Shown here: one piece after another, positions 22,205 through 56,414 of the stretch | Layout: each line of letters begins with the position of its first letter | How positions within the stretch are numbered: the stretch's first letter is position 1 | Source: Parafannyhessea umbonata | GTDB taxonomy: Bacteria > Actinomycetota > Coriobacteriia > Coriobacteriales > Atopobiaceae | Reading direction: 5' to 3' | Assembly (NCBI RefSeq): GCF_900105025.1 | Contig: NZ_LT629759.1 | Coordinates: forward strand, 1,674,001-1,738,000 | DNA length: 64,000 nucleotides | Program-made: the position numbers and the translations under genes | Notes under the pieces: generated by a model | Databases searched by the model: none | What the model was told of the DNA's origin: nothing | What the model saw: only the letters and a program-made list of their open reading frames with translations

Positions 22205-22245
22205 AAAAAAGCGGGGCCACTTGGTGGTTTCCAAGCGGCCCCGCA
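22205..22245 (-). terminator. attenuator terminator in the cstA leader
   Basis: On the minus strand, a 14-bp stem (GCGGGGCCGCUUGG paired to CCAAGUGGCCCCGC, loop AAACCA) is followed directly by UUUUUUG. It ends 26 bases before the cstA start codon, so it stops transcription before the gene unless an alternative fold prevents it. Confidence 0.88.
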
Positions 22246-22269
22246 GAAAGACGCCAGCCGCCCGCATGA

Positions 22270-22296
22270 CCGCGGGTCGGCTATACCGACTCGCGG
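22270..22296 (-). promoter_or_regulatory. pause/antiterminator hairpin in the cstA leader
   Basis: CCGCG and GTCGG pair with CCGAC and CGCGG around a five-base loop, with one mismatch. The hairpin begins directly after the leader peptide stop codon, which is where a ribosome stalled on the Ile codons would disturb folding. Confidence 0.65.
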
Positions 22297-22338
22297 CTAG
22301 ATAATAATGATCACCTCTGCTAGCGTGCTGACGCCCAT
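22297..22338 (-). CDS. cstA leader peptide MGVSTLAEVIIII
   Basis: A 13-residue open frame starting at ATG 22338 with TAGGAG eight bases upstream and ending in Val-Ile-Ile-Ile-Ile-stop (GTG ATC ATT ATT ATC TAG). The last 12 bases, ATTATTATCTAG, are identical to the end of the ilvB2 leader peptide at 56346. Followed at once by a hairpin and then a T-run terminator, it has every part of an amino-acid attenuator. Confidence 0.85.
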   Translation of the reverse strand: MGVSTLAEVIIII

Positions 22339-22527
22339 GTTCGAATCTCCTATACCGGGTGCGCCGTCTGCGCACCTCCCTTGCGGTACGGCGCCCATGA
22401 TGGCCTTCCGGAAGCCGGTGAGTGGCCAGATACTCAAAGCGGTAACATGCGGTTAACGAGATGTATGCAATGCAGAAACGGGCGAACGGTTGGTTTTTGC
22501 CGACAAACGATAAATTGCGCACCCAGT
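22339..22527 (-). promoter_or_regulatory. upstream region of the cstA leader
   Basis: This stretch precedes the cstA leader on the minus strand. It contains GTTAAC and GTTACC half-sites ten bases apart at about 22441-22457 and should carry the cstA promoter. I cannot fix a convincing -35/-10 pair and see no gene. Confidence 0.35.
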
Positions 22528-23532
22528 CTAAAGCGAGACCTGCCGAAACCCGTAAAGTCTTGCCGCGTTTTGCCACGCCGCGCCCTCGATTACTTTGGCG
22601 TGCGGACCGTGGAACAGAGCCTCTGCCTTGCGCAGGGCGAGTGGCGCCGGCGTGTACGGCCAGTCGCTCCCGTACAGCAGGTGGGTGGGGTCCGCCACCT
22701 TGAGTAGCGCGTCGAGCATGACGGGCTCCGCATCGCCCGCAAGGTCGAAGTACAGACTGCGCACGGCGAGAAGCACGTCCACGTTGGACATCATGCCCGC
22801 CGGAACGAGCACGTGCGAGATGCCGTCCATGCGATGCGCCACCTCCGGCACGAACGCACCACAGTGCGGAACGACCCACCGCACGTTGGGATAGCGGTCG
22901 AGCACGCCCTCGGTCACGAGGTTGAGCACGGCACGCGTGGTGTCTGCCAGAAACTCGAACAGCGGTGCATGCCGCGCCGCAAACTGCCCCGCCGGCACGG
23001 CCGCGGGCTTGGTGGGATGGATCGTCACGACGGCGTGCCGTGTGTCCAGGTACGCCATGAGCGGGTCGAGGGAGGGGTCTCCCAGGTAGGTGCCGCACGC
23101 GTTTGTGGGAACCTTCACGCCAAGCGCGCCTTGCAGGGCAAGGGCGCGGCGTGCCTCCGCAATGGAGGACGCGACATCAGGCAGTGGCAGCACCGCCGCA
23201 AATCCGCGCGGAGCGTCGCAGCTTGCGCACAGGGAGGACATGTAGTCGTTCAGCGCACGGCAAACCTCCGCGGAAGCGGCGTCGTCACCCCAGTTGACGT
23301 GGGGCGACGATATCGAGAAGAGCGAGAAGCCAATGTTTGCGCCCTCTGCGAAGGCACGCGCGTCCAACTCGTCCCACGAAGGCGTGGGGAAGCCGTCCTC
23401 GCGCGCGGGGTCGATGCCCGCGCGGGCGAGCGCGTCCAGGTATGCCGGGGGTAGCACGTGCTGATGGACGTCGAACAGCCGCGGCAGCCCTTGCGCGGCC
23501 GTGTGCGCGCAGCCGCTATCGCAGGTTGGCAT
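22528..23532 (-). CDS. amidohydrolase 2 family protein (ACMSD-like decarboxylase fold)
   Basis: A 334-residue metal-dependent hydrolase/decarboxylase barrel. FDVHQHVLP near residue 18 supplies the HxH metal ligands, TIHPT a third His region, PHCGAFVPEVAHRMD a further His, and LLYGSDWPY the conserved Asp. These fit the ACMSD/6-methylsalicylate-decarboxylase branch of amidohydrolases. ATG 23532 follows AGGAA and overlaps the preceding small gene by 17 bases, suggesting translational coupling. The substrate is unknown, perhaps an aromatic or cyclic acid. Confidence 0.85.
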   Translation of the reverse strand: MPTCDSGCAHTAAQGLPRLFDVHQHVLPPAYLDALARAGIDPAREDGFPTPSWDELDARAFAEGANIGFSLFSISSPHVNWGDDAASAEVCRALNDYMSSLCASCDAPRGFAAVLPLPDVASSIAEARRALALQGALGVKVPTNACGTYLGDPSLDPLMAYLDTRHAVVTIHPTKPAAVPAGQFAARHAPLFEFLADTTRAVLNLVTEGVLDRYPNVRWVVPHCGAFVPEVAHRMDGISHVLVPAGMMSNVDVLLAVRSLYFDLAGDAEPVMLDALLKVADPTHLLYGSDWPYTPAPLALRKAEALFHGPHAKVIEGAAWQNAARLYGFRQVSL

Positions 23533-23901: not shown

Positions 23902-24198
23902 ATGATCCTTGGCATGGGCGCACCCGAGCTTCTTGTCATTCTGCTCGTCACACTGGTCATCTTCGGGCCCAAGAACCTGCCAAAGCTCGGCTCCGCACTT
24001 GGCCAGACGGTCAAGAGCGTGCGCGAGGGCATGGAGGAAGGCGACGCGGCGGCTGCCGAGAAGGTCAAGAGCGAGGTCTCGGAGGCCTCGACCGAGGCCC
24101 AGACCGCGTCCTCGCAGAAGAAGTCCTGCCCGAAGTGCGGCGCCGAGGTCGACGCCGACGCGGCGTTCTGCTCGCACTGCGGCGCCAAGATCGTCTAG
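23902..24198 (+). CDS. tatA: TatA-type twin-arginine translocase subunit with C-terminal zinc ribbon
   Basis: 98 residues. Residues 7-30 are TatA-like: a membrane helix (PELLVILLVTLVIF), the FGPKNLPKLG hinge, then an amphipathic helix (SALGQTVKSVREGMEEG). A charged linker leads to Cys76, Cys79, Cys90 and Cys93 in CPKCGAEVDADAAFCSHCGAK, a typical zinc ribbon. TatA forms the Tat protein-export pore. Zinc ribbons are not part of standard TatA and could bind a partner or sense metal. GGGAGG precedes ATG 23902. No tatC is in the window. Confidence 0.85.
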   Translation: MILGMGAPELLVILLVTLVIFGPKNLPKLGSALGQTVKSVREGMEEGDAAAAEKVKSEVSEASTEAQTASSQKKSCPKCGAEVDADAAFCSHCGAKIV

Positions 24199-56275: not shown

Positions 56276-56306
56276 AATAAAAAGAGTCCCCGCCCCTGGC
56301 GAAGAC
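56276..56306 (-). terminator. attenuator terminator upstream of ilvB2
   Basis: On the minus strand, GUCUUCGCC-AGG-GGCGGGGAC (nine pairs, two of them G-U) is followed by UCUUUUUAUU. It lies between the leader peptide and ilvB2. Confidence 0.85.
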
Positions 56307-56314
56307 CCACATGC

Positions 56315-56346
56315 GTTGCAACCCCTTTGTAAAAAGAGGCTGCAAC
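56315..56346 (-). promoter_or_regulatory. pause/antiterminator stem in the ilvB2 leader
   Basis: 14-base arms (GTTGCAACCCCTTT and AAAGAGGCTGCAAC on the plus strand) pair nearly completely. The stem overlaps the leader peptide stop codon, so a ribosome stalled on the Ile codons would open it and change the downstream fold. Confidence 0.7.
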
Positions 56347-56414
56347 TAGATAATAATTAGGATTTCAGCGGAGAAGACCATGTGTCCGCGACCGTTAGAC
56401 CTTGCCTCCGTCAT
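56346..56414 (-). CDS. ilvB2 operon leader peptide, 22 residues ending in EILIII
   Basis: Starts at ATG 56414 with a strong GGAGGAGG site and reads MTEARSNGRG, then HMVFSAEILIII and stop. The codons ATC CTA ATT ATT ATC TAG form an Ile/Leu run. It is followed by a stem and a T-run terminator before ilvB2, so it is a transcription-attenuation leader. It ends in the same 12 bases as the cstA leader. Confidence 0.88.
   Translation of the reverse strand: MTEARSNGRGHMVFSAEILIII

Follow-up and report, generated by a model that had tools for sequence, protein, structure and literature searches.

The window analysed here is a stretch of 64,000 nucleotides from Parafannyhessea umbonata (contig NZ_LT629759.1, positions 1,674,001 to 1,738,000), in which cstA lies on the minus strand. 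The gene product matches the CstA profile PF02554 above the gathering score (472 bits, E 3.8e-141) and scores 195 bits against the CstA equivalog PRK15015. This value is far under the equivalog cut-off of 1188, and therefore the substrate of the protein cannot be transferred by name. The original prediction had placed a leader open reading frame (ORF), a ribosome-binding site, a hairpin and a T-run terminator before cstA, and our reading of the window sequence found each of these elements at its predicted position in a leader that runs on the minus strand from 22338 to 22205. The leader ORF (MGVSTLAEVIIII) has 13 codons, with its ATG at 22338 and its TAG at 22299-22297, and a hairpin (22296-22269) starts right after the stop codon. 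The hairpin is followed by a conserved GGGCGGCT element, an intrinsic terminator and then cstA. The terminator consists of a 14-bp stem (22244-22211) and six T residues, and lies 25 nt 5' of cstA. The coordinates of all features are collected in the table below.

Features of the cstA and ilvB2 leaders in the window (window coordinates)
Feature	Coordinates	Strand	Basis
Shine-Dalgarno sequence of leader ORF (AGGAG)	22347..22351	-	sequence
Leader ORF MGVSTLAEVIIII + TAG; sensor codons CTA, ATC ATT ATT ATC	22297..22338	-	sequence; conserved peptide family
Segment 0 (GGCGTCAGC, within the coding sequence); possible partner is the 3' extension of segment 3	22327..22335	-	duplex permutation, which ignores relatedness
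Segment 1 (CCGCGAGTCGGT); abuts the stop codon and would be masked by a ribosome there	22285..22296	-	
Segment 2 (GCCGACCCGCGGT); partner is segment 1 or 3	22269..22281	-	1:2 and 2:3 covariation
Segment 3 (GCGGGCGGCT); partner is segment 2 (terminating state) or 4 (antiterminator)	22256..22265	-	
3' extension of segment 3 (GGCGTC); complementary to segment 0	22250..22255	-	
Segment 4, terminator 5' arm	22231..22244	-	
Segment 5, terminator 3' arm	22211..22224	-	
Intrinsic terminator T-run (TTTTTT)	22205..22210	-	
cstA, predicted target gene, 633 aa, PF02554	20278..22179 (ATG 22179)	-	profile match, E 3.8e-141
ilvB2 leader peptide MVFSAEILIII + TAG; separate Ile/Leu attenuator without the GGGCGGCT element	56346..56381	-	
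ilvB2 post-stop hairpin and terminator (approximate ends)	56278..56345	-	

A run of four Ile codons occurs once in the window, compared to 0.02 expected from shuffled sequences, and none of 200 shuffles was as stable as the native leader fold (-83 kcal/mol, z = -8). Upstream of the leader, an amidohydrolase-like ORF that ends at 22528 reads toward cstA. Farther upstream, the plus strand (23902-24198) encodes a TatA-like protein with a zinc-ribbon-like C-terminal end (CPKCGAEVDADAAFCSHCGAKI), which is an unusual fusion.

The best match to the window cstA (98%) agrees with a genome close to Parafannyhessea umbonata. We collected CstA orthologues with at least 69% identity across the class Coriobacteriia and read the DNA upstream of each gene. 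A covariance model, R1, was built from 41 cstA leaders. Searches with R1 identified a full-length leader at 71 of the 110 close-orthologue cstA loci, a count that includes the 41 training leaders, which match by construction and had been recognized by their peptide and terminator before the model was made. The Ile-rich peptide is generally retained at these loci, as the original prediction had led us to expect. The leader precedes cstA at all 58 loci from the sister family Coriobacteriaceae (Collinsella and its relatives), at 10 of 48 loci from the Atopobiaceae and at three of four loci from another family (f2); most cstA genes of the Atopobiaceae, the window's own family, lack it. When mapped onto a phylogeny of 38 CstA proteins, presence of the leader needs three changes. 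R1 matched 94 of 398 class genomes at E <=0.05, almost always at cstA, with the weakest matches being partial or chance-like, and when 396 genomes sampled from the phylum were searched, its matches were confined to the order to which the window belongs. Three families keep the leader together with its frame and spacing despite differing upstream genes, for example a ribonucleotide reductase-like gene in C. vaginalis and ilvE at one locus of Collinsella provencensis.

The leader peptides differ among relatives (for example MTAQLSIISVVII, MNKQLSIIEVVII, MRTDLLSIIREII and MHAYLLISGEIIS), and indels in the ORF come in lengths divisible by three. Ile accounts for 174 of the 572 codons (30%) in 45 distinct leaders, compared to 5% of CstA residues, and 43 of the 45 have Ile within the last three codons. 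The Leu codon CTA is found in 42 of the distinct leaders and supplies 48 of their 80 Leu codons; in nine genes of the window it represents one of 391 Leu codons. CTA sits elsewhere in the peptide of one leader (L102), suggesting that the codon, and not a base pair, is kept. The leader peptide from one genus of the f2 family (g53) is rich in Leu and Val and uses CTG. A second copy of this Leu/Val-type leader (L163) lies near a contig end (genome G237, contig C42). From these features, the leader ORF appears to be a short, translated ORF rich in Ile codons and, to judge from codon rarity alone, very probably senses Leu through CTA.

Downstream of the stop codon, the leader RNA is composed of five segments. 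RNAalifold misplaced the 2:3 helix because of a one-base bulge, and we counted explicit alignment columns instead. Helices 1:2 and 4:5 were 93.6% paired and contained 103 double-change cells, compared to 31 in shuffled alignments and no more than 23 in slid versions. The 2:3 helix was 90.2% paired with 22 double-change cells, compared to 5.7 in shuffles. Native 2:3 duplexes were 2.2 kcal/mol better than swapped duplexes (0 of 5000 permutations), though this test, like our other duplex permutations, takes the leaders without correction for relatedness. Segments 3 and 4 were complementary in 96.5% of cells from cstA leaders, and no compensatory change was found in 3:4 among the cstA leaders alone because the sequence of either strand hardly varies there. 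The leaders that precede other genes show coupled changes on the two sides of 3:4 (GGGCAGCT with GGCTGTTT and GCGGTCGATG with CAGCGACTGC, for example), and a permutation test across the full set of 62 leaders favored the native 3:4 pairs (-14.5) over permuted ones (-13.9; P 0.0006). The GCGGGCGGCT element (22265-22256), which was absent from the original prediction, as was the rare CTA codon, is the pivot of the proposed switch.

In 46 of 48 leaders, no more than 0-2 nt separate the stop codon from the base at which 1:2 pairing begins, and therefore a ribosome at the stop codon would cover segment 1. In simulated folding, 37 of 48 leaders (raw tally) formed 1:2 together with 3:4 when segment 1 was free, and 36 of 48 (raw tally) formed 2:3 without 3:4 when segment 1 was masked. 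The other 11 unmasked leaders did not adopt 1:2 plus 3:4 at equilibrium and mostly formed 2:3, so transcription order must decide the outcome in these RNAs. In thermodynamic terms, 3:4 is far weaker than the terminator, indicating that read-through must be kinetic. The region between the leader ORF and cstA holds an intrinsic terminator (14-bp stem and T6) that covaries in relatives, and the 2:3 and 3:4 pairings and the stop spacing provide a mutually exclusive antiterminator that can be selected by ribosome position.

Conservation, compensatory base pairs, the Ile-rich peptide and the rare CTA codon together indicate that the leader before cstA is not there by chance. With high confidence, we propose that cstA is governed by a transcription attenuator in which the translating ribosome reports the charging of tRNA-Ile and, through the rare CTA codon, very probably that of tRNA-Leu. 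When Ile (or Leu) is short, a ribosome would stall at leader codons 5' of segment 1. Helix 1:2 would then form, leaving segment 3 free to pair with segment 4, and the withdrawal of this terminator arm would allow transcription of cstA. When Ile is plentiful, the ribosome would reach the stop codon and mask segment 1, such that 2:3 and 4:5 form and transcription ends before cstA. In an untranslated leader, segment 0 could base pair with the 3' flank of segment 3, an arrangement expected to favor termination. The Ile-rich ORF, the 1:2, 2:3 and 4:5 helices and the conserved 3:4 complementarity are supported by comparison among leaders, and from these we infer that the ribosome stalls, that the response depends on Ile and that an untranslated leader is switched off. 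An Ile-type attenuator before cstA, the central claim of the original prediction, is thus strongly supported by conservation and covariation across three families.

Two other accounts of the hairpins can be weighed against attenuation. Because the amidohydrolase-like ORF is transcribed toward cstA, the hairpin could simply be the terminator of this upstream gene and the short ORF accidental. However, the leader, frame and spacing persist next to unrelated upstream genes, helices 1:2 and 2:3 covary, and the same leader RNA also precedes genes other than cstA. Conservation, covariation and this reuse refute an upstream-gene terminator as the main account, and we regard it as extremely improbable. 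The leader could also be a riboswitch or a protein-binding attenuator in which the peptide codons carry little weight. The near invariance of segment 3 (GGGCGGCT) would suit a binding site, and codon changes in the ilvB leader of Streptomyces coelicolor had no effect (cited in PMC1262725). Yet the invariance is accounted for by the two partners of segment 3 (segments 2 and 4), and segment 3 co-changes in the leaders of other genes. The enrichment of Ile, the bias toward a rare codon, the in-frame indels and the fixed spacing between stop codon and hairpin all point to a translating ribosome, and no Rfam riboswitch or T-box was detected at threshold. We therefore consider a ligand- or protein-responsive leader to be quite improbable, and favor the ribosome-mediated attenuator.

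The original prediction also related the cstA leader to the attenuator of the ilv operon. The window contains an ilv cluster (49k-60k) with the order ilvB1-ilvN-ilvC-[leader]-ilvB2-ilvA-ilvD, in which the second of two genes for the large subunit of acetohydroxyacid synthase (AHAS) lies behind an internal attenuator that three genomes of the genus have in common. The ilvB2 leader ends with CTA ATT ATT ATC TAG and shares the rare CTA with cstA leaders. The 12-base match (ATTATTATCTAG) that had been noted between the two leaders is real, but the two nearest relatives carry CTAGCTATTATTTAG and CTAGCTATTATCTAG at this site, with leader ends of CTA GCT ATT ATT TAG and CTA GCT ATT ATC TAG. The identity is therefore most likely coincidental, a product of the Ile codons that both leaders use. 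R1 had no match in the window other than the cstA leader up to E = 5 and none in 11 ilvC-centered loci of relatives, and a scan for Ile leaders before the ilv operons of other genera returned one unconvincing match. From the R1 searches and the unconserved 12-base identity, we rejected homology between the cstA and ilvB2 leaders: none is detectable, and of the proposed kinship only the common signal stands.

Most R1 matches at genes other than cstA had E values from 2e-10 to 0.003. Six f2 genomes and three Atopobiaceae genera, g7, g12 and g20, have the leader before a gene for an MHS-type metabolite:H+ symporter, for which the best model, TIGR00883, scored below its cut-off (L167-L169, L171-L176, L180). 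In these three genera, cstA has no leader. The contig of one g12 genome stops before the gene downstream of the leader. The leader also precedes a 2-keto-4-pentenoate-hydratase-like gene in two genomes (G080 and G088), with a probable truncated copy in a third (G172), and PanE/ApbA-like reductase genes in G080 (loci L164 and L165 in G080, L166 in G088 and L170 in G172). The hydratase-like gene has no Pfam match and weak NCBIfam hydratase matches. Collinsella provencensis carries two leader-cstA pairs (L012, L022), each with a class IV aminotransferase gene immediately 5', and the genome with these two cassettes lacks ilvC and ilvD. The presence of this leader family before MHS symporter, hydratase-like and PanE-like genes suggests a role in the uptake and use of 2-keto acids (or peptides).

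We then considered what CstA may import. A pyruvate importer that feeds branched-chain amino acid (BCAA) synthesis, as had been suggested, would agree with the full ilv set of the window genome and with E. coli CstA, which imports pyruvate and was earlier called a peptide transporter (PMC5847655, PMC7730263). However, 15 of 40 leader-bearing genomes had no ilvC match above cut-off, compared to 7 of 40 leader-less genomes, and none of these 15 had an ilvD match above cut-off, which would bar the usual route to Ile, Leu and Val, although a gene missing from a draft genome may still be present in the organism. A positive association between leader and ilvC was not found in this comparison of 40 and 40 genomes, where the trend was rather the opposite. 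A class IV aminotransferase, of a family that is not specific to IlvE, is kept in 14 of the 15. The 15 genomes without ilvC and ilvD matches argue that supplying pyruvate for BCAA synthesis cannot be a general purpose, and this part of the original prediction is disfavored; we hold the pyruvate route to be unlikely. Import of peptides as a BCAA source for auxotrophs is a somewhat better, still tentative, candidate. Work in E. coli and Campylobacter has linked CstA to the use of peptides (cited in PMC5847655), and the leader is found in genomes without ilvC and ilvD, but the other leader-bearing genes resemble 2-keto-acid enzymes or belong to an organic-acid/H+ symporter family and are not peptidases or peptide ABC systems. 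On gene content, import of branched 2-keto acids or peptides fits better than pyruvate. The link between cstA and BCAA supply is supported, and we infer that CstA in these bacteria helps supply BCAAs in the form of branched 2-keto acids or peptides. One possible scheme, which we advance with reserve, is that the RNA marks a BCAA-starvation regulon in which CstA, or the MHS symporter in genera where cstA has no leader, imports branched 2-keto acids for conversion to Ile, Leu and Val by the conserved IlvE-type aminotransferase, and which also includes the hydratase-like and PanE-like proteins. If so, branched-chain 2-keto acids would be a new physiological substrate for CstA proteins.

CstA takes its name from carbon starvation, and either peptides or pyruvate have been argued to be its substrate. 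A switch governed by the charging of tRNA-Ile and tRNA-Leu would be an independent clue to what is imported, and it appears to tie this supposed "carbon starvation" or pyruvate transporter of gut and oral Coriobacteriia to amino-acid supply. The clue concerns Collinsella and other abundant gut bacteria, many of which seem unable to make BCAAs, and the leader RNA would group other transporters and enzymes of obscure role into one BCAA response. At the gathering threshold, no Rfam family matched in the window, including Collinsella-1 (RF01700), T-box and amino-acid leaders, and Rfam searches of the leader region and six relatives gave weak, chance-like matches only. We found no published cstA attenuation or cstA leader peptide in the open-access literature. 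The leader is a structured-RNA family absent from Rfam and so a new one for annotation; the attenuator is of a known kind, and its cstA target is unexpected.

The closest parallel in design is the his operon attenuator of enterobacteria, in which ribosome position selects either B:C and D:E (read-through) or C:D and E:F (termination) from segments A-F. The cstA leader has the same alternating chain of pairings, with segments 1-5 corresponding to B-F and segment 0 to A. It differs in having Ile and Leu codons in place of His codons and a transporter gene as its target; in addition, a ribosome at the stop codon would mask segment 1 only, and the partner of segment 0 would be the 3' side of segment 3. 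Rare CUA Leu codons act as a sensitive sensor in the leader of the leu operon in Salmonella and E. coli. The cstA leader also uses a rare Leu codon, usually as one CTA among Ile codons, whereas the leu leader has a run of Leu codons. Within the window, the ilvB2 leader likewise ends with Ile codons and TAG and is followed by a post-stop hairpin and terminator, but it lacks the GGGCGGCT element and is unmatched by R1 up to E = 5. Attenuators of AHAS genes have been described in actinobacterial ilvB leaders (PMC1262725) and in the Corynebacterium ilvB-II motif (PMC10272879), which resemble the cstA leader in placing a short Ile/Leu/Val-rich ORF 5' of an intrinsic terminator. Unlike the cstA leader, the ilvB ORFs overlap candidate terminator hairpins and the ilvB-II ORF spans the first hairpin, and neither study included Coriobacteriia or cstA. 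The HisR regulon of His-auxotrophic Collinsella intestinalis, in which an amino-acid regulator controls a transporter and no biosynthetic genes (PMC9413887), resembles the proposed cstA switch in that an amino-acid signal governs a transporter, but it relies on a DNA-binding repressor, histidine and an ABC transporter.
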